Source: Prevotellaceae bacterium UBA7028 (GTDB lineage: Bacteria > Bacteroidota > Bacteroidia > Bacteroidales > Bacteroidaceae). From it: 14,350 bases of DNA. Position 1 is the first letter of the stretch, and the number at the start of each line of letters is the position of its first letter. Made by a program: the position numbers and the translations under genes. This document shows, one piece after another, positions 824-14,350 of the stretch. The stretch is from positions 280 through 14,629 of the forward strand of contig DLBF01000069.1 in the NCBI GenBank assembly GCA_002494215.1. Direction: 5' to 3'. The notes below the pieces were generated by a model. That model did not search any database. It was given only the letters and a program-made list of their open reading frames with translations, and was not told the origin of the DNA.

Positions 824-954
824 ATAAGCCCGATAACCATCGGTCTTCATCGCTCTTTTTGTAATATGGGAGTTTAAAATATAGAGTCAACCTTTATTAA
901 TTATATTGTTTAACAGGGTCAATTTGTTCTAGCGTAAGACTGTTTACTGTTTTT

Positions 955-1024
955 CGGTTATCGGTTATCGAAACGTGAAACTATTATCTATCATCTATCA
1001 TCTATTATCTCTCAATTGTCATCT
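955..1024. repeat. Heptanucleotide block element A
   Basis: Ten consecutive 7-bp units in phase: CGGTTAT twice (955-968), CGAAACG and TGAAACT (969-982), ATTATCT, ATCATCT, ATCATCT, ATTATCT (983-1010), then CTCAATT and GTCATCT (1011-1024). The block order is CGGTTAT word, GAAAC word, ATCATCT word. The same order recurs at 8781-8887 and 11187-11291. It lies about 90 bases upstream of the GH95 promoter. Confidence 0.7.
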
Positions 1025-1113
1025 ACATTCCAGATTTAGGGTATTTAGTGTCTTTCGATGTAAATTGTTATATGCACGAGCGTGGCCTTTTTGCACCAAA
1101 TTGGCGATAAAGT

Positions 1114-1144
1114 TTTGCCGCTTACATTATTATATATATATTTG
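1114..1144 (+). promoter_or_regulatory. Bacteroidetes-type promoter for the GH95 gene
   Basis: A TTTG -33 box (1114-1117) is followed after 19 bases by TATATTTG (1137-1144), a perfect TAnnTTTG -7 box. Transcription would begin near 1150, leaving a leader of about 20 bases before the ATG at 1170. This placement supports 1170 rather than the in-frame ATG at 975 as the translation start. No operator was recognised. Confidence 0.8.
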
Positions 1145-1169
1145 TGGCAGAAATAAACTGTTAATACGC

Positions 1170-4100
1170 ATGAAATACGCTAAAATCGTTTTTACATTCC
1201 TTCTTGCCATGTTCGCTGGCTTGGTTTGGGCGGCAGACCTGAGCAACGCTAAGTGGTATACTGTTAAAGTGGCTAACGGTGGCTTCCTGAGTACGGCTTC
1301 CGGCTATATGAACGGGGGTTACCTGACCCTGTCTAACACTACGGAAGATGCAAGTGACAATGGTCTGTGGACCTACATCGGCAATGATACGGACGGGTAT
1401 TCCTTCTATAACAAGGCCAAGGGTGCCAACTATGTGCTGGGCATGACGGGCTCGGAGGCGCAGGGACGCGCCCAGATGGTGACGGAAGGCAATTCCTCGA
1501 ATGTCACGAAGTTCGATATGGGACAAAATGGTACGGGGTTCTGGATTAAGGATCATGGCTCGGCCAACAAATACTGGAACAAACGCGGCGACTTCCTTGC
1601 TTACTGGGATAGCTCGGCTGGCAGCAGCGATACGGGCTCCCGCTTCGTGTTTACTGTTCAGAGTGTGCCTGACGAGTTCTTCAGCGCTGAAGGGGTGGAG
1701 GACAACTATTACTACATCGCATTTGGTAAATCTAATCTGGTGATTCAGGATATGGGGGCTTCCAAGAATGTTACAACGCAGGCGCGCCTGTATGGCGAAG
1801 ATACCCAATTGTGGAAACTTGTTGGCAACGAAGCGAAATTCCAGCTTGTGAACAAAGGCTCGGGCCGCAGGGCGTACTACGACGGAAGTCGTGTAAAGAC
1901 ACGCACCAGTGATGATGCCAAGGGCTTTGCCATTAAGAAGACTACCAACGCCAGCTATGCGGGAATGTACGAGATTTCGTGGGTTGGAGCAGCCTCCCAG
2001 ACCAACCGTTTCTTTAACCAGTGGGGTGGAACGGGCGTAGGCAAGGAAATTGGACTGTGGGAGGCAGGGGACGGTAACAACCCCCTCTACCTTGTTGCCG
2101 AAGCGGATGTGCTGCCTTCTGAGTTCTGTGTGGGGCTGAAGGGCTCCCGCCCAACGGACATACATGATTTCTCGCTCTGGTACGACACTCCCGCCACTGC
2201 CACGGGTGTCAGCGATACGTGGATGGAATATGCCCTGCCTATGGGTAACGGTCAGATAGGAGCCACCATACGGGGAGGGGTGCTCACGGACGACATCCAG
2301 TTCAACGAGAAGACGCTGTGGAGCGGCTATGCCACGAACGGCAGTTCCGTAGGGCAGGGGTACTTCCAGAACTTCGGCTCTATCCTGGTTAAGGACCAAA
2401 GTGGAACCTTCTCGGCAATAGCATCCGACAACAAACCGATAGAGAACTATAACCGTTTCCTTGACATCATAGACGGTGTGGCTGGTGTGAACTTTCAGTC
2501 CCCCGACCACCAGACAACCTTCCGCCGTCGTTACTTCGCCTCTGCCACCGACAAGGTCTTCGTGGCCAGATACGAGGCTGACGGGGCAGAGAAGATGACA
2601 CTGGGCATCATCTATGCACCAGACGAACAGATTGGCGCCAGCAAGGTGTCCTATCAGAAGGAATCGGACGGAAAGGCTTCTGCCACATTCCGTGGCAAGT
2701 TGCAGGTGGTTAGCTACAACACGCGCTTCAAGGTTGAGAGTGACGGCACGGTGAGCACAAGCTCGGAGGGCGTAAGTGTAAGCGGTGCTACGTGGGTGAA
2801 CATCATCATGGCTGCCGCAACGGATTACGATGCACGCAAAAACGGTTGCGTGAGCGGAGCATCGGCAACAACATTGTCGTCGAATGTGAACAGCCGTATC
2901 AACAAGGCTTATAACAAAGGATACGCCACGCTGCTCTCTGACCACAAGGCTGCACACAGCGAACTGATGAATCGTGTGAACCTGCAGTTGGGAGGCTCTT
3001 CGGCAATGACAACGGAGAACCTTATAAAGTTCTATAATGCATCCGAGCAGAACAAAACAAGCAGCGACGGGCTCTTCCTGGAAGCGCTCTACTTCCAGTA
3101 CGGACGATACTTCACCATAGGTGCCAACTTGGACACCAGCATTCACGCACCCTCTAACCTGCAGGGTATATGGAACGACCGTAGTAATACCAATTTCTGG
3201 CATTGCGACATACATGCCGACATCAATGTACAGATGAACTACTGGCCTGCAGACCCCACCAATCTATCTGAGATGCACCTGCCTTTCCTGAATCATATAT
3301 TGGATTTGGGCGCTACAGGCAGCAACTCTCCATGGTATCAGTTTGCAACCAAAATCAACAGCAGTGCCAACGGATGGACGGTGGCAGTGGAGAACAATAT
3401 CTTTGGCGGTACCTCTACGTGGAGCAATAGTAGTATGAAGACACTGGGCGCATGGTATTGCTCGCATCTGTGGCGTTACTACAGATACACCATGGACCAA
3501 GATTTCCTCAAGAAGGCACTCCCCGTTATGTATCAGTGTGCGCTCTTCATCAAATCCATAGCTACCAAGGACACCAAGGGACTCTATGAGATTACAAACG
3601 AATGGAGCCCCGAGCACGGCCCCTATGACGTAACGGCCTTTGCCCAGCAGACAGCCTATGAGGTGTTGGACGAGGTGATGAAGGGGCATGCCGAACTGGG
3701 CAGTAATTCACCCCTCACGGCTTCGCAGATTGCTGCCATTCAGGATCTTTATGACAACTTCGACAAAGGGCTGTGGACAGAGACTTATAACGGCAAGACT
3801 TGTATCTCGGAATGGAAGAACAATGCGCTTTCCGACCCTGGACACCGCCATCTCTCACATCTGATGTGCCTCTATCCCTTCTCGCAGGTCAGTGCCTACG
3901 ACCAGAGTGCAGAGGGTAAACAGCTCTTCGAGGCTGCCTATAACGGACAGATAGCCCGTAACGGCGATGTAACGGGATGGTCTATGGGATGGCAGACAAA
4001 TACCTACAGCCGTTGCCTGGATGGCGACCGTGCCCGTAAGAACCTCTCACTGGCGCTGCGCCACTCTGGCAGTTATGTGATAGAAATGGGTAACTATGGC

Positions 4101-4646
4101 GGTTGCTATTACAACCTGTTCGATGCTCACTCGCCCTTCCAGATAGATGGTAACTATGGTTGCACCAGCGGTATTGCCGAGATGTTGCTGCATAGCTTCG
4201 ACGGCATAGCTCTGTTGCCTGCTTTGCCTACGGCATGGGCTAACGGAAGTGTAAGCGGCCTGAAAGCCGAGGGTAACTTCTTGGTTGATATGCAGTGGAA
4301 GGCGGGGAAACTGTCCTATGCCGAAATCAAGAGCCAGGCAGGCGCTCCTCTAACACTCCGCAGCACAGCTTCCATAGACCTGAGCAAGGCATACTTCTAT
4401 GTGAACTGCAGTAGGGTAACACCTGTGCAGAATCAGGATGGAACTTTCTCCATCGAGATGAAGAAGGCAGATACACTGGTTATCTCGTCAGAGAATATAG
4501 ACGAGCAGATGACAGCCATAGAGGGTGTTCCGGCATGCCTTTCTTCTTCTGGACTGGTGTATGATCTGTCTGGCCGTCGCTATGCCGGCATATCAGGTCG
4601 TTGCGGTATACGCGTGGTGAACGGACAGAAACGAATGCTGAGGTAA
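1170..4646 (+). CDS. Secreted glycoside hydrolase family 95 (alpha-L-fucosidase/galactosidase type)
   Basis: Predicted inverting exo-glycosidase acting on terminal alpha-L-fucose or L-galactose of glycans, 1158 residues. Residues 1-21 are a signal peptide ending WA/AD. Two trefoil-like modules follow (about 25-165 and 178-311), each with an LWxxxGN motif (xLWTYIGN, QLWKLVGN). The GH95 beta-sandwich starts near 333 (SLWYDTPA, ALPMGNGQIGA), the helical catalytic barrel spans about 610-1010, and a C-terminal beta domain follows. Catalytic candidates, by analogy with Bifidobacterium AfcA, are E815 (WSPEHGP), N686 (INVQMNYW) and D993 (FQIDGNYG). The position expected to be Asn two residues before N686 is D684. 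The last about 30 residues (YDLSGRR, VVNGQK) resemble short type IX sorting tails. The start was chosen because the signal peptide begins at M1 here and a promoter lies 26 bases upstream. The longer ORF from 975 would add 65 unrelated residues and run through the repeat element. There are no SusC/SusD neighbours, and the 3' end overlaps the convergent S41 gene by 54 bases. Exact substrate is uncertain. Confidence 0.9.
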   Translation: MKYAKIVFTFLLAMFAGLVWAADLSNAKWYTVKVANGGFLSTASGYMNGGYLTLSNTTEDASDNGLWTYIGNDTDGYSFYNKAKGANYVLGMTGSEAQGRAQMVTEGNSSNVTKFDMGQNGTGFWIKDHGSANKYWNKRGDFLAYWDSSAGSSDTGSRFVFTVQSVPDEFFSAEGVEDNYYYIAFGKSNLVIQDMGASKNVTTQARLYGEDTQLWKLVGNEAKFQLVNKGSGRRAYYDGSRVKTRTSDDAKGFAIKKTTNASYAGMYEISWVGAASQTNRFFNQWGGTGVGKEIGLWEAGDGNNPLYLVAEADVLPSEFCVGLKGSRPTDIHDFSLWYDTPATATGVSDTWMEYALPMGNGQIGATIRGGVLTDDIQFNEKTLWSGYATNGSSVGQGYFQNFGSILVKDQSGTFSAIASDNKPIENYNRFLDIIDGVAGVNFQSPDHQTTFRRRYFASATDKVFVARYEADGAEKMTLGIIYAPDEQIGASKVSYQKESDGKASATFRGKLQVVSYNTRFKVESDGTVSTSSEGVSVSGATWVNIIMAAATDYDARKNGCVSGASATTLSSNVNSRINKAYNKGYATLLSDHKAAHSELMNRVNLQLGGSSAMTTENLIKFYNASEQNKTSSDGLFLEALYFQYGRYFTIGANLDTSIHAPSNLQGIWNDRSNTNFWHCDIHADINVQMNYWPADPTNLSEMHLPFLNHILDLGATGSNSPWYQFATKINSSANGWTVAVENNIFGGTSTWSNSSMKTLGAWYCSHLWRYYRYTMDQDFLKKALPVMYQCALFIKSIATKDTKGLYEITNEWSPEHGPYDVTAFAQQTAYEVLDEVMKGHAELGSNSPLTASQIAAIQDLYDNFDKGLWTETYNGKTCISEWKNNALSDPGHRHLSHLMCLYPFSQVSAYDQSAEGKQLFEAAYNGQIARNGDVTGWSMGWQTNTYSRCLDGDRARKNLSLALRHSGSYVIEMGNYGGCYYNLFDAHSPFQIDGNYGCTSGIAEMLLHSFDGIALLPALPTAWANGSVSGLKAEGNFLVDMQWKAGKLSYAEIKSQAGAPLTLRSTASIDLSKAYFYVNCSRVTPVQNQDGTFSIEMKKADTLVISSENIDEQMTAIEGVPACLSSSGLVYDLSGRRYAGISGRCGIRVVNGQKRMLR

Positions 4647-6314
4647 GCTTCCCTTCAGCATAGCTTCCTTCTTATTCTTGCTTGTTGGATTGTTATCCTC
4701 GGCATTGGGTGCCTGTGGGTAGGCGAGTCCGTCTTTCAATACCTGAATGGCACGTAACACGGTGGGGTCTTCCTCGTTTAGGAACTGCAGGTAGTCCTGT
4801 ATGTCGCGTGCATTGTAGATGATGGAGCCGAAGATGTTCTCTTCGAAGAGTGCCTTGCTCTTCAGCAGCATCAGGTTGCGACGCTTCAGGTCGTGCTCCT
4901 CGCCAAAGCGGGCAAAACGCTCCAGCAGGTTCTCCTTACGCAGGAATTTCTCTACGGCTTTGACATCGCTGAAGCTGCTTAGGCGTTGACGGTTCTCGTC
5001 GGTATAGGCGAATGCGAACTGTCTGATGAGGCCCGTGTAGGCTGCTTCCTTATAATAAGAGGTCACCCCCGATGTATCAACGGGAATGAAGATGTCTGGC
5101 ATGATGCCACCGCCTCCATACACAACACGGCCTAAGTTGGTGTAGTACTTCTCTCCATCCTGATGTATGCTGTCCTGATAGAAGAATTCTCCACGCTCGT
5201 AACGTGCTATCAGCTCGTTGTCGTAATCCTCGCCTTTACCCTTTACATAGGGCTTCTGGATGCAGCGTCCGCTGGGTGTATAGTAGCGGGCTATGGTCAG
5301 GCGCACTACGCTGCCGTCTGAACGGAACTCCATGGGCTGCTGCACAAGGCCCTTGCCAAAGCTGCGTCGGCCGATGATGGTTCCGCGGTCGTTATCCTGA
5401 ATGGCACCAGCAAAGATCTCGCTGGCACTGGCGCTGATTTCGTCCACCAAGACCACCAAGGGCAGATGCTGGAAGGTTCCCCTTCCGTCGGAACGGAACT
5501 CCTCGCGCGGACTCTTACGTCCCTCTGTGTAAACGACCAGTTGGTTCTTGTGCAGGAACTCGTTGGCCATCTGAATGGCGATATGCATGTATCCGCCCTG
5601 ATTGCCTCGCAGGTCGATGATAAGGTTCTTCATACCCTTCATGTTCAGGTCGGCAAGGGCTACCAACATCTCGGCGTAGGTCTGCTCTCCAAAGTCCTTT
5701 ACACGTATGTAGCCGGTCTTGTCGTTAATCATATATGAGGCATCGACACTGACTACGGGGATGTCTCCACGCTTAACGGTGAAGTATAGGATTTCCTTTG
5801 AACCATGGCGTTTGATGCCAAGCTTCACCTTGGAGCCTTTCTCGCCCTTCAGGTGCTTCATCACCTGATTGGAGTCCATTCCTACCAGCGAAGTCTTGTC
5901 GGCTGTTATGATACGGTCTCCTGCCAGAAGGCCTACCTTCTCGGCGGGACCTCCATGAATCACAGACATCACATTCACGGTGTCCCTCTCCATAATAAAC
6001 TGGACACCTATACCGCTGAAGCTGCCTTTCAGTTTCTCGGCTGCCTCCTGGGCATTGTTGGCACTGATATATGTGCTGTGGGGGTCGAGCTCTAAGAGAA
6101 TCTGGGGAATGGCATCCTCGACAAGTGATGTCATATCCACCGTATCCACGTAGTTGTTGTCTATCAACTGCAACAGATAGTTCAGCTTGTTGCTACCCGT
6201 GTTGATGATGTTCAGGCGGTTGCCTGAGTAATGACTGGCATAGAAGGTGCCAATGACGACACCAACAACCATACTGATTGCCATAAGTAATGGCGTAACG
6301 CGATGCTTATTCAT
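4593..6314 (-). CDS. S41 family C-terminal processing peptidase (CtpA/Prc-like)
   Basis: Serine endopeptidase of 573 residues that cleaves C-terminal regions of envelope proteins, expected to be anchored in the inner membrane facing the periplasm. Residues 8-25 form a hydrophobic signal anchor. The N-terminal LDPHSTYI motif (76-83) is typical. A PDZ domain covers about 100-180 (SGIGVQF, GGPAEKVGLLAGD). The catalytic core follows with YIRVKDF (202-208), LRGNQGG (235-241), the nucleophile S296 in SASASEIFAGA and the general-base K321 in SFGKGLVQ. The 25-residue Ser-Lys spacing matches E. coli Prc. The C-terminal helical region (430-530) ends in a low-complexity basic tail, whose last about 18 codons are antisense to the GH95 3' end. 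Its ATG overlaps the stop of the upstream fusion gene by eight bases (ATGAATAA), implying co-translation. Complete and probably active. Confidence 0.93.
   Translation of the reverse strand: MNKHRVTPLLMAISMVVGVVIGTFYASHYSGNRLNIINTGSNKLNYLLQLIDNNYVDTVDMTSLVEDAIPQILLELDPHSTYISANNAQEAAEKLKGSFSGIGVQFIMERDTVNVMSVIHGGPAEKVGLLAGDRIITADKTSLVGMDSNQVMKHLKGEKGSKVKLGIKRHGSKEILYFTVKRGDIPVVSVDASYMINDKTGYIRVKDFGEQTYAEMLVALADLNMKGMKNLIIDLRGNQGGYMHIAIQMANEFLHKNQLVVYTEGRKSPREEFRSDGRGTFQHLPLVVLVDEISASASEIFAGAIQDNDRGTIIGRRSFGKGLVQQPMEFRSDGSVVRLTIARYYTPSGRCIQKPYVKGKGEDYDNELIARYERGEFFYQDSIHQDGEKYYTNLGRVVYGGGGIMPDIFIPVDTSGVTSYYKEAAYTGLIRQFAFAYTDENRQRLSSFSDVKAVEKFLRKENLLERFARFGEEHDLKRRNLMLLKSKALFEENIFGSIIYNARDIQDYLQFLNEEDPTVLRAIQVLKDGLAYPQAPNAEDNNPTSKNKKEAMLKGSLPQHSFLSVHHAYTATT
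4635..4661 (+). terminator. Possible weak terminator hairpin after GH95
   Basis: ATGCTGAGG (4635-4643) can pair with CCTTCAGCAT (4652-4661), allowing one bulged base. It spans the GH95 stop codon and is followed by T-rich sequence without a pure T-run. It lies inside the coding region of the convergent S41 gene, so it may be fortuitous. Confidence 0.3.
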
Positions 6315-8769
6315 CTTTCTTTTCTCCTTCTTCTGAGATTGGTAGGTTAATCACTTCTATGCCGGCACGGCGCAGCAGATCCACACCGTCCAGTATGCGA
6401 TATTCGCGGTCGTAGATAACACGCTTGATGCCAGCCTGTATGATGAGCTTGGCACACTCGATGCAGGGCGAGTCGGTGACATACAGGGTAGAGCCGTCGC
6501 TGTTATTGCCGCTGCGGGCTATCTTGGTGATGGCGTTGGCCTCGGCATGCAGTACGTAGGGCTTGCTGACGTTGTTCTCGTCTTCGCAAACATTCTCGAA
6601 GCCCTGGGGCGTGCCGTTGTAGCCGTCGCTGATAATCATCTTATCCTTTACGACAAGGGCACCCACCTGCCTGCGTACGCAGTAGCTGTTCTCGCTCCAG
6701 ATGCGTGCCATGCGCAGGTAGCGTATATCCAAATTATGTTGCTTGGTGTCAGGCAGGCCATTACGACGCAGAAGTGCATCGATGGTGGGCTCCTGACCAC
6801 GGAAACGCTTGTATAGTTTCTGTGGGGGTTCTGTGCCACCCTTGGAGAGTACCTCGTTGCGGAATCGCTGCGCCGTCTGCTGGTCCATGATTCCGTTCTT
6901 CAGGAACATACTAAAGGCATCTGCATCCAGCACCTCTGCCCACTTGTAGCTGTAGTAACCTGCCGAGTAGCCGCCGCTCATGATGTGGCTGAACTGAACA
7001 CTCATACAGGTACCCTCTATGCAGGGTAGTAGCTTGGCACGCCTCCAGGCATGCTGCTCAAACCGCAGGATGTCTTCCTGAAGCGGTTCTGTGCGGGTGT
7101 AGTAGGCCATATCCAACAGACAGAAGCTCAGTTGGCGCACGCAGGCATATCCGCACATGAAGTTGCGACTCTTGCGAATACGCTCTATAAGTGACGTAGG
7201 GATGGGTTCGCCTGTCTGGTAATGGAAGGCAAAGGTATGCAGGAACTCAGGCTCTACGGCATAGTTCTCCATAAACTGAGAGGGCAGCTCCACAAAATCC
7301 CAGAAGACGTTGGTGCCGCTCAGACTTTGGAAGCGTACCTTCGAGAACATGCCGTGCAGGGCGTGACCGAACTCGTGCAGGAAAGTCTCCACTTCGCCCA
7401 ATGTCAGCAAAGAGGGACGCTCGGCTGTGGGCTTGGTAAAGTTGGTGACTATGCTGACGTGCGGACGGACATCATTTCCTTCGTCTGTGTATTGCTCCAG
7501 ATAGCTTGTCATCCAGGCACCACTCTGTTTGCTCTCGCGTGGGAAGAAATCGGCATACAATACGGCTAAGAATGAACCATCCGCATCGAATACCTCAAAT
7601 GCCTCTACATCAGGATGATAGACTTCGATATCTGAATTTTTCCTAAAGGTAATTCCGTATAGCTTGGTTGCCAAAGAGAAGACACCCTCCCGAACCTTCT
7701 GCAGGGGGAAGTAGGGGCGTAACATCTCGGCATCCAGGTTGTAGCGCTCCAGCTTCAGCTTGTGGCTGTAATAAGCCCAGTCCCAAGGCATCAGGGTGAA
7801 GTCGGGACCCTCTGTCTGACGTGCCTTCTGCTGCAACTCGCGCAGTTCGCCACGGGCCACGGGCATGTAGGCTTTCAGCAGTTGGTCTATCAGTTGGTTC
7901 ACATGCTGGGTATCCTGTGCCATGCGGCGTGTCAGTACGTAGTCGGCATAGGTGTTGTAACCCAATAGCTGAGCTATCTCCTGACGCAGGTTGACAATGC
8001 GCTGTACAATCTGTCGGTTGTCGAACTCATCGCCATGTGCACAGATGGTCATTTTGCCCATGTAAAGCTGGCGACGCAGTTCGCGATCGTCGGCATAAGT
8101 CATGAAGGGCTGATAGCTGGGGAAGTGCAGCGTGATGAGCCATCCCTCCAACTGCTTCTCTTGTGCTGCTTGTGCGGCAGCCTCTATGGCAGTCTGAGGC
8201 AGACCCGACAACTGTTTCTTGTCTGTTAGGTGTAGTTGGAAGGCATTGGTCTGCTTCAGCTCGTTCTGGCTGAACTGCAGGGTTAGGGTAGAGAGCTCCA
8301 CCTGTAGGGCAGAGAAGCGCTTCTTGTCTTCTGCATTCAGGCAAGCTCCATGACGCAGGAATCCTTGGTACACGTTCTCCAACAGTGTCTGCTCTTCTGG
8401 AGCCAGGTCTCCATGATGCTCGTAGACATACTTAACGCGTTTGAACAAATCCTCGTTCAGCATGATGCGGTTGGCATGTTCCGTCAGCAAGGGACTCAGT
8501 TTCTGAGCCAGCTCGTCCATCTCGTCGTTCGTGTTGGCACTTATCAGATTAAAAAAGATGGTGGTGGCAGTGTCCAGCAGCTCGCTGGTGCGGGGCTGTA
8601 TGGTGTTCTGGAAGGTTGGCTCCTCGGGGTTGTTGATGATAGCCTGAATGGCTTCATCCTCCAGTCTCATACCTTCCATGATGGCAGGTTCGAAGTGCTC
8701 CAGCTTGATTTGGCTGAAGGGCGCCGTGCCATGTAGTGTCTTGAATTTATCTGTTAGCAATGGATTCAT
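6307..8769 (-). CDS. Fusion: M3 peptidyl-dipeptidase (Dcp-like) plus dCMP deaminase
   Basis: A single 820-codon frame. Residues 1 to about 672 are a full-length M3 zinc metallopeptidase of the Dcp/oligopeptidase type: HEFGH at 465-469 (Zn ligands H465 and H469, catalytic E466), third ligand E494 in FVELPSQ, and the downstream GGYSAGYYSYKW (599-610). No signal peptide, so cytoplasmic; expected role is release of dipeptides from peptide C-termini. Residues about 676-820 are a complete deoxycytidylate deaminase (dCMP to dUMP, dTTP supply): HAEAN (741-745; Zn ligand H741, proton shuttle E743) and PCIEC (768-772; Zn ligands C769, C772). The junction is NGLPDTKQHNLDIRYLRM, with no in-frame stop or ATG between the domains until M687. 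A TGA lies one base out of frame at 6751-6749, so a single indel could convert this into two genes. If it is real, the fusion links peptide turnover and nucleotide metabolism in one chain. If not, two adjacent genes. Domain identities are firm; the fusion is less so. Confidence 0.88.
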   Translation of the reverse strand: MNPLLTDKFKTLHGTAPFSQIKLEHFEPAIMEGMRLEDEAIQAIINNPEEPTFQNTIQPRTSELLDTATTIFFNLISANTNDEMDELAQKLSPLLTEHANRIMLNEDLFKRVKYVYEHHGDLAPEEQTLLENVYQGFLRHGACLNAEDKKRFSALQVELSTLTLQFSQNELKQTNAFQLHLTDKKQLSGLPQTAIEAAAQAAQEKQLEGWLITLHFPSYQPFMTYADDRELRRQLYMGKMTICAHGDEFDNRQIVQRIVNLRQEIAQLLGYNTYADYVLTRRMAQDTQHVNQLIDQLLKAYMPVARGELRELQQKARQTEGPDFTLMPWDWAYYSHKLKLERYNLDAEMLRPYFPLQKVREGVFSLATKLYGITFRKNSDIEVYHPDVEAFEVFDADGSFLAVLYADFFPRESKQSGAWMTSYLEQYTDEGNDVRPHVSIVTNFTKPTAERPSLLTLGEVETFLHEFGHALHGMFSKVRFQSLSGTNVFWDFVELPSQFMENYAVEPEFLHTFAFHYQTGEPIPTSLIERIRKSRNFMCGYACVRQLSFCLLDMAYYTRTEPLQEDILRFEQHAWRRAKLLPCIEGTCMSVQFSHIMSGGYSAGYYSYKWAEVLDADAFSMFLKNGIMDQQTAQRFRNEVLSKGGTEPPQKLYKRFRGQEPTIDALLRRNGLPDTKQHNLDIRYLRMARIWSENSYCVRRQVGALVVKDKMIISDGYNGTPQGFENVCEDENNVSKPYVLHAEANAITKIARSGNNSDGSTLYVTDSPCIECAKLIIQAGIKRVIYDREYRILDGVDLLRRAGIEVINLPISEEGEKKDE

Positions 8770-8780
8770 ATCTTGCGTTT

Positions 8781-8887
8781 AATTCATAATTCATAATTCA
8801 TAATTTAAATTTCAAACTTGAAACATGAAACTTGAATCTTGAAACTATCTATCATCTCTAATCTCTAATCTCTAAACTCTCCTCTCT
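8781..8887. repeat. Heptanucleotide block element B
   Basis: Three copies of AATTCAT (8781-8801) and a degenerate unit are followed, after a short phase slip, by TTGAAAC, ATGAAAC, TTGAATC, TTGAAAC (8818-8845). Then come TATCTAT, CATCTCT, AATCTCT, AATCTCT, AAACTCT, CCTCTCT (8846-8887). The block order matches elements A and C. The third block enters the 3' end of the Crp-family gene and supplies its last nine codons and stop. The rest fills the 88-base gap before the M3/deaminase gene. No TAnnTTTG box was found here for that gene. Confidence 0.75.
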
Positions 8888-9556
8888 CATCCTTCCAATA
8901 TCTGGGATTACAATCAGCGAGCGTTTCAACTCTATGATGTCCTCCTTTTCCATTTGATTCAGAGCCCGTGATGTGTTCAGACGCGTCTCTCCGATGTAGT
9001 TGGCCAAGTCTGTCATCTTAATGGCTATCTCAACCTGTCCGCAGCAGTCGGTGAACAGTCTTTGCAGCAGGCTGCTTATCTTCTCTCTTACCGTCAGTCC
9101 CTGCACAGGTTGCAGCTGTGCCTCCTTCTTGTGAATGATGGCCGACAGCAGGTTGAAGTAGTTGATGCGGAATATCTCCGTCTTCATAAGATGCTGCATC
9201 ACATCCCTCTTCCTAACGGTGATGAAAGATACATCTTGCAGTGGGGTGTACGAGCACCTGAAGCGGCAGTCCAGCCCATACAGGTTATGCGGTTCCAATA
9301 TTGCTGGGGCCTGCAGGATGGACTTTGTCTGATAGAGACCGTCGTCGGATTTGTATTGGCGTATCATCTTTCCTGTAGTCAGAAATATAAGATGTGTGCA
9401 TGGGTCGTTCTGGCGAATCAGCGGTCTGCTCATAGGCGGTACCTCGTTCACCTCCATACCAATCACACTCTCTATGTGTGCCAGTTCCTTGCCGCTTATT
9501 CCTTGCAGCAGAGGCAGTTTGGTCAGCAGTTCATATTTCTGAGTCAGTGATATCAT
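8858..9556 (-). CDS. Crp/Fnr family transcriptional regulator
   Basis: Protein of 232 residues with an N-terminal cyclic-nucleotide-binding-like beta barrel (about 15-125) and a dimerisation helix (about 125-160). A C-terminal winged helix follows (about 175-220), with the recognition region MTDLANYIGETRLNTSRAL, the usual position of the Crp DNA-reading helix. The barrel lacks the cAMP-binding RxxS signature of E. coli Crp. The cysteines (C53, C97, C101, C171, C172) are not arranged as an Fnr iron-sulfur N-terminus, so the effector is unknown. Its ATG overlaps the apbE stop (ATGA), so it is likely translated with mntP and apbE and may regulate metal or redox functions (inference). The C-terminal nine residues (REESLEIRD) are encoded by 7-bp repeat units, so the tail is probably not conserved and could vary in length with repeat number. 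Confidence 0.88.
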   Translation of the reverse strand: MISLTQKYELLTKLPLLQGISGKELAHIESVIGMEVNEVPPMSRPLIRQNDPCTHLIFLTTGKMIRQYKSDDGLYQTKSILQAPAILEPHNLYGLDCRFRCSYTPLQDVSFITVRKRDVMQHLMKTEIFRINYFNLLSAIIHKKEAQLQPVQGLTVREKISSLLQRLFTDCCGQVEIAIKMTDLANYIGETRLNTSRALNQMEKEDIIELKRSLIVIPDIGRMREESLEIRD

Positions 9557-10614
9557 TCGGGTTGTTCTGTTTCGTAGAAGTTGGGGGTGTGCCAGGTCTG
9601 GTACTGACCATCCTCATTAGCATAGATGAAGTAAGCCTGCAGTTGGGGATGTTCTTTCAGGAAATCCTGCGAGCGTTTCATGCCCATCACCATAAAGGCT
9701 GTAGCATAACCATCGGCCATGGCACATGAGGGAGCCTTGACCGTGCTGCTCAGTATGCTCTGTTGTGCAGGATACCCAGTCTTCGGGTCTATGGTGTGGC
9801 CAATCTTGCGTCCATTCTGGATGTAGTAGTTGCGATAGTTGCCGCTGGTGGCAAGGGCTCCGTCGTGGACTTCGATGACTTCCTGCAAATCGTTTTTGAT
9901 GCATGTGGTATCGTCGTCGGGCTTGTTGATGCCTATGCGCCATGCCTCCCCCTTGGGGTTGGTGCCTTGTGCCACAATCTCGCCTCCTATCTCAACCATG
10001 AAGTTCTCTATCCCCATGTTGCGGAACAGGTTGGCTACGTGATCTACGCCAAAACCTTTGGCAACGGCGCTGAAGTCCAGTATGATACGTGGGTCATCCT
10101 TGCAGAAGTTGCCGTTGTGGATGGATATACGATACCATCCCACCAAGTCCAGCAGGCTGTCTATCAGTGCTTTGTCGGGGACCTGTCGTTTCTTGTATCC
10201 AAAGCCCCATACGTTTACCAAAGGCGCTACGGTTGGGTCAAAGGCACCGTCTGTTTCCTGGCTGATGGAGCGTGACACGTTCCAGACACTGGTAATGAGT
10301 GAGTCGGCTTTCATGCTCTCTCCTCTGTTGATACAGGAAACGGTACTTGCCGGGTTGAACATAGACAGGGAGGCATCTATGTCCTTCAGGCGAGCCAGTA
10401 TGCTGTCGTGCAGGCTTTCCTTGTATTGGTATTTAATGTGATAAACGGTACCGAAGATAGAACCCTCCTCTGTCTGGAAAGGCGTGTTGTCTTGGGTGCC
10501 GTGTTCACGTTGTGCAACAAAGATGGTTCCTACAATCAATACTGCCAGAAGGGCAATATGGTAGGGACGGAAGCGATTTTCCGTCGGTTGGTCGGATACG
10601 TTTTGCATTTTCAT
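9553..10614 (-). CDS. apbE: FAD:protein FMN transferase (ApbE)
   Basis: 353-residue flavin transferase that attaches FMN through a phosphoester to Thr/Ser of extracytoplasmic proteins; in Bacteroidetes the expected clients are Nqr/Rnf subunits (known for the family, not visible here). Residues 18-34 form one membrane segment and there is no lipobox, so the enzyme is probably a signal-anchored periplasmic protein rather than a lipoprotein. Family motifs in order: SMFNPAS (84-90), DPTVAPLVNVWGFG (126-139), DFSAVAKGFGVD (180-191), EIGGEIVAQG (208-217), ATSGNYRN (255-262), HTIDPKTGYP (273-282) and ADGYATAF (300-307), with metal-binding candidates D301 and T305. Length is normal. It overlaps mntP upstream by ATGA and the Crp-type gene downstream by ATGA, the middle of a tightly coupled trio. 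Confidence 0.95.
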   Translation of the reverse strand: MKMQNVSDQPTENRFRPYHIALLAVLIVGTIFVAQREHGTQDNTPFQTEEGSIFGTVYHIKYQYKESLHDSILARLKDIDASLSMFNPASTVSCINRGESMKADSLITSVWNVSRSISQETDGAFDPTVAPLVNVWGFGYKKRQVPDKALIDSLLDLVGWYRISIHNGNFCKDDPRIILDFSAVAKGFGVDHVANLFRNMGIENFMVEIGGEIVAQGTNPKGEAWRIGINKPDDDTTCIKNDLQEVIEVHDGALATSGNYRNYYIQNGRKIGHTIDPKTGYPAQQSILSSTVKAPSCAMADGYATAFMVMGMKRSQDFLKEHPQLQAYFIYANEDGQYQTWHTPNFYETEQPE

Positions 10615-11180
10615 ATTAGGTGTTCGATTAGTAGTTTTATTCCTATTGAGATTAATATTATTCCACCCAGAATTTCGCTCCTGATGTTTATATGTTTACT
10701 TGCTTTGATTCCTATGTACAGACCCGCAATGCCGAATAGGGTAGAGCAGAGCCCAATGATGCCAGCTGCTGTCAGTACCATCTGAAGGGTTGCGTTCTGC
10801 AAGCAGGCAAAGGAGATGCCGACAGCCAGAGCGTCTATGCTGGTAGCCACGGAAAGGACTATTATGCCCACGGGTGTCAGCAGTTTTGTGGCAGTGGCAT
10901 TATCTTTCTTTTTGAGCCCTTCCCATAGCATCTTCATTCCCAGGTAGAACAGCAGCACTACGGCTATGTACTCCAGGTGTTGAATGTGGTGGCTCAGCAG
11001 CGATGTGCCCATGTAACCCAACAGTGTCATGCCGCCCTGGAAGATTCCGAAGGACAGTACCAACGCCGTCATGATTGGCCATATCACACGTCGTGCCGAC
11101 AGCCCTTGGGCTATACTAACAGAGAAGCAATCCATTGCCAGTGCTACTCCTAAAAGCCATATTTCAAGAATCGTTATCAC
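10611..11180 (-). CDS. mntP: Putative manganese efflux pump MntP
   Basis: 189-residue inner-membrane protein with six predicted helices in two homologous halves, the MntP (YebN) architecture that exports Mn2+. The paired acidic motifs are present: ALAMDCFSVS with D17 and ATSIDALAVG with D116, matching the essential Asp residues of E. coli MntP. Cytosolic loop EGLKKKDNATATK separates the halves. The start at 11180 fits the first helix directly. A 109-base gap separates it from the DUF6048 gene upstream, filled by heptad element C. No yybP-ykoY manganese riboswitch or TAnnTTTG box was recognised in that gap. The stop overlaps the apbE start (ATGA). Confidence 0.93.
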   Translation of the reverse strand: MITILEIWLLGVALAMDCFSVSIAQGLSARRVIWPIMTALVLSFGIFQGGMTLLGYMGTSLLSHHIQHLEYIAVVLLFYLGMKMLWEGLKKKDNATATKLLTPVGIIVLSVATSIDALAVGISFACLQNATLQMVLTAAGIIGLCSTLFGIAGLYIGIKASKHINIRSEILGGIILISIGIKLLIEHLI

Positions 11181-11186
11181 TATTTG

Positions 11187-11291
11187 TTTATCGTTGAGCG
11201 GTTATCGGTTATCGTTGAGCGGTTAGTGGTTAGCGTTTTGCGCTACCTGAAACCTGAAACTTTCTCTTTTAATTTTTATCTCTTATTCTCT
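11187..11291. repeat. Heptanucleotide block element C
   Basis: Fifteen 7-bp steps in phase on the + strand: TTTATCG, TTGAGCG, GTTATCG, GTTATCG, TTGAGCG, GTTAGTG, GTTAGCG, TTTTGCG (11187-11242); CTACCTG, AAACCTG, AAACTTT (11243-11263); CTCTTTT, AATTTTT, ATCTCTT, ATTCTCT (11264-11291). The order is GTTATCG word, CTGAAAC word, ATCTCTT word, as in A and B. It fills the gap between the DUF6048 stop, which it touches, and the mntP start. Confidence 0.75.
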
Positions 11292-12114
11292 ACTGCGCCC
11301 TTCTCTTCGCAGCTCTTGGCGTTGATTCTGTGGGGGAAGGAGTCTTTTCTTTGGGCTTAGCGTCTTCTTTCTCCTTGTTTTTCTTCTTGCCAAACAAGTT
11401 GCCGAATAGCGGCTTCTGCCCGTTCTTGCGTGCAGACTTACCAATATCGAAGGTCAGGTTTACTGTTCCACCGAAGGCTGTGTCGTCATTCCTGCCGTAG
11501 CCAGGCACGTAGTAGGGCGTTCCCAAGTCAGAGTAGCTCTGCATGGTGGGCATCTTGTAGCGGATATTGTATCCCAGACGAACGATACTCCATAGTCTGG
11601 TTTCAAAACCCAGGCAGAACTCCAACCATTGGTTGTTGCCTTGCAGTCCCTCCAGTTGCAGAGGTCTGACGGTGCCATAAACGGGGTCTGTGAAGTCTGG
11701 ACAGGTGAAGTCGTATTTGTACGAGCTGAATCCATAGCGTACGCCCAATAGGAAACGGTTGCCGTTTACTTTCTTGTTTAAGTTGTAGTCCATACCAATG
11801 CGCCAGTAGGGTGCTCTGGTGCTGAAGACGTTGGTGGTCTCTCCACCGTAGCGGGTACAGTCACCTATACCAATCTCAAAGATGGGGAAGTATTTCTCCT
11901 TCAGACCGATGCGCCCGGATATCTCCATGTTGGCAAATCGAGCGCCTACAGCCTTCATGGCCAATCCGCAGATGTCTATGCCGACACCTACGCCACTCAA
12001 CAAGGGGGCTTTCTCCTTGGGCTTGCTGTCTTTCTTGTTCCCTGCCCATGCTGTGGGGCAGAGTAGGCTAATCAGCAGCAGGATAGAAATGAATCTGCAG
12101 GTTCTCGTCTTCAT
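11290..12114 (-). CDS. Exported DUF6048 family protein
   Basis: 274 residues. A signal peptide (1-24, cleavage after TAWA) is followed by a short charged linker (KKDSKPKEK). Then comes a region of alternating beta-strand character with many aromatic and glycine residues (about 38-235: GVGVGIDICG, YWRIGMDYNL, FLLGVRYGFSSYKYDF, WLEFCLGFETRLW, GGTVNLTFDIG). This looks like a small outer-membrane beta-barrel. The C-terminus is a highly basic tail (KKKNKEKEDAKPKEK to RAAKRRAQ). Biochemical function is unknown. The start lies 47 bases inside the 3' end of the DUF6452 gene, in another frame, so the two are probably translated together. The ATG used gives an intact signal peptide. The stop TAG touches heptad element C. 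Confidence 0.8.
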   Translation of the reverse strand: MKTRTCRFISILLLISLLCPTAWAGNKKDSKPKEKAPLLSGVGVGIDICGLAMKAVGARFANMEISGRIGLKEKYFPIFEIGIGDCTRYGGETTNVFSTRAPYWRIGMDYNLNKKVNGNRFLLGVRYGFSSYKYDFTCPDFTDPVYGTVRPLQLEGLQGNNQWLEFCLGFETRLWSIVRLGYNIRYKMPTMQSYSDLGTPYYVPGYGRNDDTAFGGTVNLTFDIGKSARKNGQKPLFGNLFGKKKNKEKEDAKPKEKTPSPTESTPRAAKRRAQ

Positions 12115-14282: not shown

Positions 14283-14350
14283 GCAAAAAACGGGAAAGTC
14301 CTGTACGGCATGCTCCCTTCGAATCCCCCAGGGCTTGACCGCAGCAAGGG
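14283..14350 (+). ncRNA. ffs: Small signal recognition particle RNA (4.5S), 5' part
   Basis: The segment after the promoter contains the conserved SRP domain pattern: CTTCGAATCCCCCAGG (14317 onward) and GCAGCAAGGG (14341-14350). These are the two strands of the internal loop that binds the M domain of Ffh, separated by the short apical loop. The preceding arm (CCTGTACGGCATGCTCCC) is unpaired within the window, and its partner strand would lie just beyond 14350, so about two thirds of the gene is present. The apical sequence GGGCTTGACC has no GNRA tetraloop as in E. coli. The GGGAAAGTCC near the start recalls RNase P RNA, but the rest does not fit that RNA. The 5' end is estimated from the promoter. 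Confidence 0.85.

Follow-up and report, generated by a model that had tools for sequence, protein, structure and literature searches.

Heptanucleotide arrays between the genes of a Prevotellaceae chromosome segment and their ordered composites in a sister genome

The stretch of DNA analysed here, hereafter the window, is a 14,350-nucleotide piece of a Bacteroidales chromosome (Prevotellaceae bacterium UBA7028, contig DLBF01000069.1, positions 280 to 14,629 of the forward strand), in which three clusters of 7-bp units, at 955-1024, 8781-8887 and 11187-11291 (elements 1, 2 and 3), raise the question of how similar repeat blocks came to stand between different genes in what looks like one order. 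A preliminary description of the window had seen in all three the same three blocks, in the same order and orientation, and had proposed a composite element that spreads or is maintained, or else a structured regulatory module, independent slippage being hard to reconcile with the likeness. We compared the window with its relatives and with other Bacteroidota genomes (loci are cited below by L numbers and genomes by G numbers). We think it fairly probable that the clusters are heptanucleotide satellites, neutral or selfish, that expanded where they stand and spread from gap to gap by copying.

The three clusters were all found where they had been described. Identity at a lag of 7 was 0.63, 0.74 and 0.61 in elements 1, 2 and 3, against 0.20-0.35 at the other lags from 3 to 13 and 0.49-0.64 at lag 14; the best period-7 segment was matched by 0, 0 and 2 of 1000 resamples, respectively, and Tandem Repeats Finder (TRF) called period 7 in each cluster. 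The nine blocks were further tested singly, each against 2000 dinucleotide resamples (Table 1). Seven are built of 7-bp units, and the periodicity of the middle block of element 1 and of the third block of element 3 is not beyond chance. A three-block structure is thus found in element 2 only, elements 1 and 3 being two blocks plus a weak one. Among the recognisable blocks, order and strand are indeed shared: on the + strand, GTTATCG-type units precede GAAAC in elements 1 and 3, and GAAAC precedes ATCTATC/ATCTCTA in elements 1 and 2. As few block pairs are shared within the window, this agreement amounts, by our estimate, to a coincidence of about 1 in 16. The first block, described as variable, is in element 2 (AATTCAT) another word altogether. 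In gene sense, block A (TTAGAGA, GATAGAT) of elements 2 and 3 is followed by B (AGTTTC), and B by C (GATAACC, GCTAACC), whose place is taken in element 2 by D (AATTATG). As for their intergenic placement, element 1 lies upstream of a GH95 glycosidase gene and is intergenic if this gene starts at the ATG at 1170, as we read it, a GTG-started frame from 975 covering most of the element otherwise. Element 2 occupies the gap between a Crp-like gene and an M3-peptidase gene, its block D ending 10 bp ahead of the M3-peptidase start codon; its third block is largely inside the open reading frame (ORF) 8858-9556(-). Element 3 lies in the DUF6048/MntP gap. The heptad observation is therefore partly confirmed: right in outline, overdrawn in detail.

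Table 1. Repeat blocks of the three window elements, with lag-7 matches and the number of 2000 resamples equalling them
Element	Block	Position	Strand	Units	Copies	Program call or remark	Lag-7 matches	Resamples equal
1	C (first on +)	954..970	(-)	GATAACC (CGGTTAT on +)	2.4	TRF period 7, 100%	10/10	3
1	B (middle)	970..983	(-)	GTTTC pair (GAAACGTGAAAC on +)		repeat family D4; weak	5/10 (over 967-983)	468
1	A (third on +)	981..1025	(-)	GATAGAT/GATAATA (ATCTATC on +)	6.4	TRF	28/38	1
2	D	8780..8805	(-)	AATTATG (AATTCAT on +)	3.7	TRF 100%	19/19	0
2	B	8813..8847	(-)	AAGTTTC (GAAACTT on +)	4.7	TRF 84%	22/28	0
2	A	8847..8891	(-)	TTAGAGA (ATCTCTA on +)	5.4	TRF	31/38	0
3	C (first on +)	11187..11237	(-)	GATAACC/GCTAACC/GCTCAAC		TRF period 7 and 21 (21-bp higher-order unit)	31/44	0
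3	B	11245..11261	(-)	AGGTTTC (GAAACCT on +)	2.3	TRF 100%	9/10	31
3	claimed third block	11262..11296	(-)	pyrimidine-rich on +			15/28	414

Copying of composites was revealed by the sister genome G001, where TTGAGAG/TTTAGAG, GTTTAC and CTAACC words, the counterparts of the window blocks, stand together at many loci. When the whole genome was searched with gapped patterns, GTTTAC-to-CTAACC (B-to-C) gave 64 matches, i.e. 21 junctions at 16 loci, and CTAACC-to-GTTTAC (C-to-B) gave 22 matches, i.e. 9 junctions at 5 loci, four of them also holding the B-to-C order; the opposite-strand arrangements gave one match each (2 junctions) and the reversed control patterns none. The same strand was thus used at 30 of the 32 junctions (p=2.5e-7) and at 17 of the 19 loci (p=0.0007), both values assuming an independence that is not fully true, and the window's order was followed at 21 of the 30 same-strand junctions, the reversed order at 9. 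Non-repeat linkers recur at the 21 B-to-C junctions (GTTCC at 9, TTTTTCGCC at 4 and TATAACG at 3; junctions and linkers were counted by eye), and two places of L001, 6.3 kb apart, share with 95% identity a stretch of 62 bp that contains a linker. Since they recur, such linkers indicate that composites are copied as units and that independent slippage alone is not enough, as the preliminary description had held. The junction patterns were chosen after L001 had been examined; like the word-independent comparison described next, they are less biased than the word classes A, B and C, defined after viewing the window and L001, under which 26 of 27 adjacent block pairs in the G001 sample are co-oriented. 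A word-independent comparison of the sampled parts of G001 gave 33 of 53 arrangements conserved; 13 kept the relative strand but had the order reversed, and in 7 one block was flipped, for a random expectation of about 1/4, 1/4 and 1/2, the comparisons sharing junctions and not being independent. In a second relative, G002, a single GTTTAC-to-CTAACC match was found and none for the other three arrangements. We also searched 14 heptad-rich genomes outside the close relatives, picked by hand (12 with high counts of the TTGA pattern described below or with TTGAAAC words, plus those of L068 and L033). AATTCAT-to-GAAAC in the window's arrangement, and its swap, were absent from all 14, and the sole composites were GTTTC before AATTCA (3 matches at 2 places in 2 genomes). 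A block order fixed across the phylum is consequently not supported (three arrangements in 0/14 genomes, GTTTC-to-AATTCA in 2/14).

The words themselves are genome-typical: in the window's relatives and the other genomes, two words from one genome tend to be closer than two from different genomes. Identical consensus words made up 5.5% of 2153 same-genome array pairs and 1.0% of 16375 between-genome pairs, and 16.6% of the 169 same-genome pairs left once G001 and G002 were set aside. The share of pairs at a word distance of 0 or 1 was 0.162, vs an average of 0.085 and at most 0.116 when the labels were permuted 200 times. Sibling species can nevertheless differ at one place: the gap after the M3 gene holds AAGTTGA units in L045, GGTTTGA in L033 and AAGCATT in L032, and no array was called there in L066. 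Inside arrays, unit likeness was 0.863 between neighbours, about 0.79 at five to seven units and 0.835 at eight (58 pairs), a fall with distance that is broadly as local duplication predicts. Compared with letter-shuffled words, TGA/TCA and AAC/GTT were among the enriched triplets, and ATA/TAT, GTA/TAC and TAG/CTA among the depleted ones; self-complementary 4-mers were rarer in words than in gap heptads (0.285 vs 0.358). A hidden common word was searched for, and only tendencies such as TTGA and GTT emerged.

The preference for a step of seven is broad, reaching beyond the window's close relatives. In 751 gaps of the first 81 sequences, 62 segments of period 7 scored at least 14, vs 0 in resamples; there were 13 such segments at period 8, 6 at period 9, 2 at period 6 and none at periods 4 and 5, the multiples of seven being well represented (37 segments at period 14, 32 at period 21). 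Among relatives of the window's own genome, GCTAACCNCTAACC had 106 matches in G001 and 117 in G002, and its reversed control 0. TTGA occurring four times at every seventh base was found in 113 of 296 Bacteroidota genomes. In the same first 99 genomes, this pattern was present in 36 at period 7 (360 places), 12 at period 6 (31 places) and 14 at period 8 (90 places), figures that were counted and summed by hand and detect only words containing TTGA. Samples of 200 kb from other Bacteroidota genomes contained 10 period-7 segments in G172, 4 in G208 (160 kb) and 2 in G035, and none in the sampled stretches of G271 and G105 (200 kb each), G097 (40 kb) and G132. Heptads are hence patchy among Bacteroidota genomes. 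Period 8 yielded 3 segments in the G132 sample and 7 in that of G035, whose stretches, one excepted, had been chosen around octad matches.

Other repeats were seen beside the heptads. Period 22 was represented by 25 segments in the 751 gaps and 36 over the whole 81 sequences; as none of the 36 overlaps a period-7 segment, it forms a separate repeat class (e.g. L003 22219-22384, L036 9616-9759, L063 14228-14347, L066 20199-20286), whose units look genome-specific too. G035 (L181-L189) has an octad dialect of GTTGANNN units with a variable NNN, often as facing inverted arrays between genes that could form long imperfect hairpins; a fixed core with a variable triplet is not expected from simple slippage. 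L002 carries hexad-like runs (TTTTCG, ACGATA) in gaps at 17600-17700, 7545-7690 and 9955-10001, beside CGCTAAC heptads in two of the three, so other unit lengths adjoin heptads. Heptad arrays also occur in inverted pairs that face each other over distances of tens of bases up to 3.6 kb (L016 5981-6010 and 9622-9651; L022 14189-14276; L027 16911-17048; L071 10944-11051).

Arrays are concentrated outside genes. The 174 arrays found in gaps amount to 475 per Mb and the 32 inside large ORFs to 12.7 per Mb, a 37-fold difference in density, the gene calls coming from a longest-ORF caller for which 'interior' and 'gap' are approximate. They were found in 96 of 914 co-directional, 13 of 198 convergent and 6 of 200 divergent gaps; the difference between co-directional and divergent gaps was significant (p=0.0004), that between co-directional and convergent gaps was not (p=0.11). 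Gene ends are also reached: 41 arrays in 19 genomes contain the gene's stop codon. In the window, the Crp-like gene runs at its 3' end into block A of element 2, which provides its TAG stop; the protein ends in ...IPDIGRMREESLEIRD, with TTAGAGA units encoding the last residues, where the relatives end in ...IPELQKLKQE (L001) and ...IPDIKKIL (L002). A heptad array even lies inside the M3 coding region of L006 (11353-11384), in frame overall; this gene reads REKMANGQWSMVNERPHVS in L006 and RKGENVRPHVS in L064, which is 93.6% identical over the aligned 5.9 kb. Arrays can thus recode gene ends, which affects C-terminus annotation and gap-based markers. A rule of purine-rich sense strands (23/27 near stops, 3/14 near starts) weakened with more data (15/25 of arrays abutting or covering starts, 28/56 of those lying 3-30 bp upstream) and was dropped.

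Orthologous gaps were compared with those of the closest relatives, two metagenome-assembled genomes represented by L001 (RUG14681) and L002 (RGIG9995, yak reticulum), whose M3-peptidase protein is 91-92% identical to that of the window and whose nucleotide identity to it is 75-79% over long aligned stretches. At gap 1, the window and L002 share GTTTCG followed by two CTAACC-type units, different repeats preceding them, and L001 has no GH95 gene at this place. The composite of gap 2 is present in the window only, L001 having none and L002 an ACGATA hexad-like run. At gap 3, a CTAACC-type block is found in the window, in L001 as a large array and in L002 as a single unit in GGTTTCGCTAACC. The gap before the M3 gene held an array in 1 of 74 loci (L025, word AAGTTGA; 74 of the 80 loci were examined). 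Between L006 and L064, one gap keeps AAGAAGT with a different copy number, and a further two array sites are entirely different. In the 6381 pairs of orthologous gaps compared, co-occurrence of arrays was at about the chance level or below it: pairs with an array on both sides numbered 17 vs 19.5 expected at a protein identity of at least 75%, and 23 vs 22.1 and 6 vs 11.5 in the other comparisons. Positional persistence was therefore unsupported overall, though single gaps look persistent. Both the differences between orthologous gaps and the chance-level co-occurrence indicate that arrays come and go quickly.

A satellite model can be built on what was observed directly, i.e. the period, the location, the dialect, the recurring linkers, the same-strand composites of G001 and the fast turnover. 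Slipped-strand or template-switching synthesis, strongly biased towards a step of 7 nt, would give rise to short arrays in gaps, and these would later mutate and re-expand. In G001, arrays of different words and non-repeat linkers make up multi-block composites at separate loci, on one relative strand and in a preferred order; their copying probably went through ectopic gene conversion or through template switching from one array to a similar one. Words within one genome are closer to each other than to the words of other genomes. As seven is not a multiple of three, copy changes break reading frames and arrays would survive in gaps and gene ends; their distribution suggests that they persist there, where stop-bearing words would close the frame at once. 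A sequence-specific regulatory function would not be required, and the arrays presumably lack one.

Several points weigh against this model. Slippage and conversion were not caught in the act, no event having been seen directly. The model accounts neither for the step of 7 nor for the period-22 class, the biased word triplets are not predicted by a purely neutral model, and the different words at the same gap in sibling species (L045/L033/L032) need an efficient overwriting process. The CTAACC block kept at gap 3 in three species could reflect constraint. Finally, in G002 the same word-independent comparison gave 11 of 33 arrangements conserved, 8 reversed and 14 with one block flipped, which is near random and implies that composite copying is not uniform. 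Taken with the 14 heptad-rich genomes, this makes block order a property of a copy lineage and not a general rule. The idea of a composite element that spreads is accordingly supported by G001, with its strand agreement, its prevailing window order and its shared linkers, while G002 and those 14 genomes speak against it; the earlier interpretation as a whole is partly supported.

Two alternatives give the arrays a function. That they form a regulatory module, their words binding a protein or forming an RNA structure that tunes neighbouring genes, would fit the higher frequency of arrays in co-directional than in divergent gaps, the CTAACC block kept at gap 3 in three species, the place of element 2, 10 bp before a start codon, and its folding, the only one better than that of shuffles (z of -3.58 on the gene-sense strand and -3.47 on the other). 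Elements 1 and 3, however, did not go beyond a z of about -1.5 (+1.96 and -1.47 on the gene-sense strand, +0.40 and -1.51 on the other), and divergent gaps, which necessarily hold promoters, are the poorest in arrays. Moreover, the orientation of the composites at the 16 G001 loci is unrelated to the genes (5 sense, 7 antisense, 3 mixed, 1 unknown), the words in a given gap change from one species to another, and element 2 is absent from both close relatives. No Rfam family reached its gathering score at the elements, and none of the 25 inverted pairs listed (of 96) covers them as a palindrome of the repetitive extragenic palindrome (REP) or bacterial interspersed mosaic element (BIME) kind would. 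The proposed structured regulatory module thus found little support, orientation, folding and Rfam results counting against it; with orientation indifferent to genes, one element of three folding and words that change, we hold it unlikely. That arrays are translation-stop cassettes under selection, a stop-bearing 7-mer closing three frames within three units and blocking read-through, is highly improbable as a general cause. The Crp-like gene of the window does end on an array stop, and 37 of the 41 stop-containing arrays have stops in all three sense frames vs 13 on the other strand. This signal looked strong and was rejected as circular, because an ORF can end only where its sense strand has a stop. 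It nearly vanishes where arrays do not overlap the stop, be they arrays starting -2 to 10 bp from it (24 sense and 21 antisense of 36) or mid-gap arrays (33 vs 30 of 45), which largely refutes the cassettes; among stop triplets, besides, only TGA is enriched, TAA being as expected and TAG depleted.

The other alternatives concern the origin of the arrays. Pure independent slippage in each gap, the window's shared order being coincidental, agrees with the co-occurrence at orthologous gaps not exceeding expectation (17 vs 19.5), with the near-random arrangement in G002 and with the three window elements being weak evidence when taken alone. In G001, however, the recurring non-repeat linkers and the one strand shared at 30 of 32 junctions, for the most part with the order of the window, already disfavour it, and we find it quite unlikely. 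A dedicated element, either mobile or written by an enzyme that works with a 7-nt template or register (a telomerase-like reverse transcriptase, or a transposase that moves composites) and leaves its template in the words, would account for the narrow period, the genome-wide dialects, the same strand relation in composites at 16 G001 loci and the different words of sibling species at one gap. Yet one genome uses many words at once, which is not expected from a single template, and neither constant ends nor terminal inverted repeats nor target-site duplications were noticed in the 16 G001 composites, inspected by eye without a systematic test. An exact composite-junction pattern matched in 5 viral contigs, where the examined stretches hold no period-7 array; these matches look like chance, and viral carriage was rejected. 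Such an element appears quite improbable. We also considered, as a very unlikely case, that Bacteroidota have a dedicated heptad-writing process, which would constantly replace gap DNA by the current words of the genome and copy ordered multi-word cassettes between gaps, either through the 7-nt register of a polymerase or of a reverse transcriptase or through homology-driven overwriting. If true, it would explain at once the narrow period, the dialects, the different sibling words per gap and the same-strand cassettes.

The clusters are set among a GH95 glycosidase gene on the (+) strand and genes all on the (-) strand, encoding an S41 peptidase, an M3 peptidase fused to a dCMP deaminase, the Crp-like regulator, ApbE, MntP, DUF6048 and DUF6452 proteins, a glycosyltransferase and a DUF4199 protein. 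The fusion is a single ORF at 6307-8769(-), with the M3 peptidase at residues 222-671 and the deaminase domain at 681-786. The M3 match spans about 2.9-3.06 kb in Bacteroides/Phocaeicola loci (e.g. L042, L056, L062, L072, L077) vs about 2.45 kb, which may mean that peptidase and deaminase are encoded separately, or joined in another way, in those loci. A Prevotella-like M3 gene on the Roseburia-labelled contig L050 probably reflects a binning error. Two long inverted repeats (449-520, 23 nt at 91%, and 686-827, 33 nt at 85%) sit in the gene-poor stretch from an apparent tRNA 3' end at the left edge to GH95 and are possibly remains of an integrated element; ARAGORN reported no complete tRNA in the window despite that apparent 3' end. 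A Bacteroidales small signal recognition particle RNA, cut off by the window end, lies at 14285-14350(+).

Tandem 7-mers at many loci are familiar from cyanobacteria as STRR repeats. The window elements share with intergenic heptanucleotide repeats the 7-bp period and the position between genes, and in the relatives such repeats occupy many loci per genome. Intergenic heptamers were described as the most abundant tandem repeats in many prokaryotes, with no clear clue to their function (SPADE survey, PMC6344855). The likeness lies in the period, the intergenic position and the wide distribution; the passages of that survey on heptamers do not treat multi-word composites, a fixed block order or genome-wide dialects, and its main text has no words beginning with Bacteroid or Prevotella. 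In Xanthomonas and Nostoc, GGGNATC quadruplex heptads are spread genome-wide in gaps, preferably between aligned ORFs (Rehm 2015, PMC4692102, which also mentions the tandem heptanucleotides of Calothrix). They too are dispersed and some overlap stop codons, but they have quadruplex-capable G-tracts, whereas the window elements contain neither GGG nor CCC. TAACTGA direct repeats occur in Beggiatoaceae, cyanobacteria and some Bacteroidetes, and the same study notes gaps that also hold other heptamers and, in Elizabethkingia, near-identical intergenic regions with larger heptamer assemblages (MacGregor 2015, PMC4679880). That system has a single, invariable word, which in the Beggiatoaceae genome mostly stands directly ahead of starts, and block order and strand are not treated in the relevant portion of the article; TAACTGA is absent from both strands of the three window elements. 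A subset of 6-9 bp repeats is enriched in prokaryotic phyla, repeat density being high in Bacteroidota (PMC12699852), and the relevant parts of the short tandem repeat surveys (PMC12699852, PMC4060949) do not single out heptads in Bacteroidota gaps or composites. Our searches of an openly licensed library turned up no account of heptad composites that are ordered, fixed in strand and copied from gap to gap, and no survey of heptads in Prevotellaceae. Intergenic heptad repeats of bacteria and mixed heptamer assemblages in Bacteroidetes are already known; the dispersed ordered composite and the genome-wide words are what is added here, and they turn the abundance of heptamers that offered no clear hint of a function into testable claims, i.e. 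a step of 7 and not 6 or 8, dialects, changes of word between siblings and strand-fixed copied composites.

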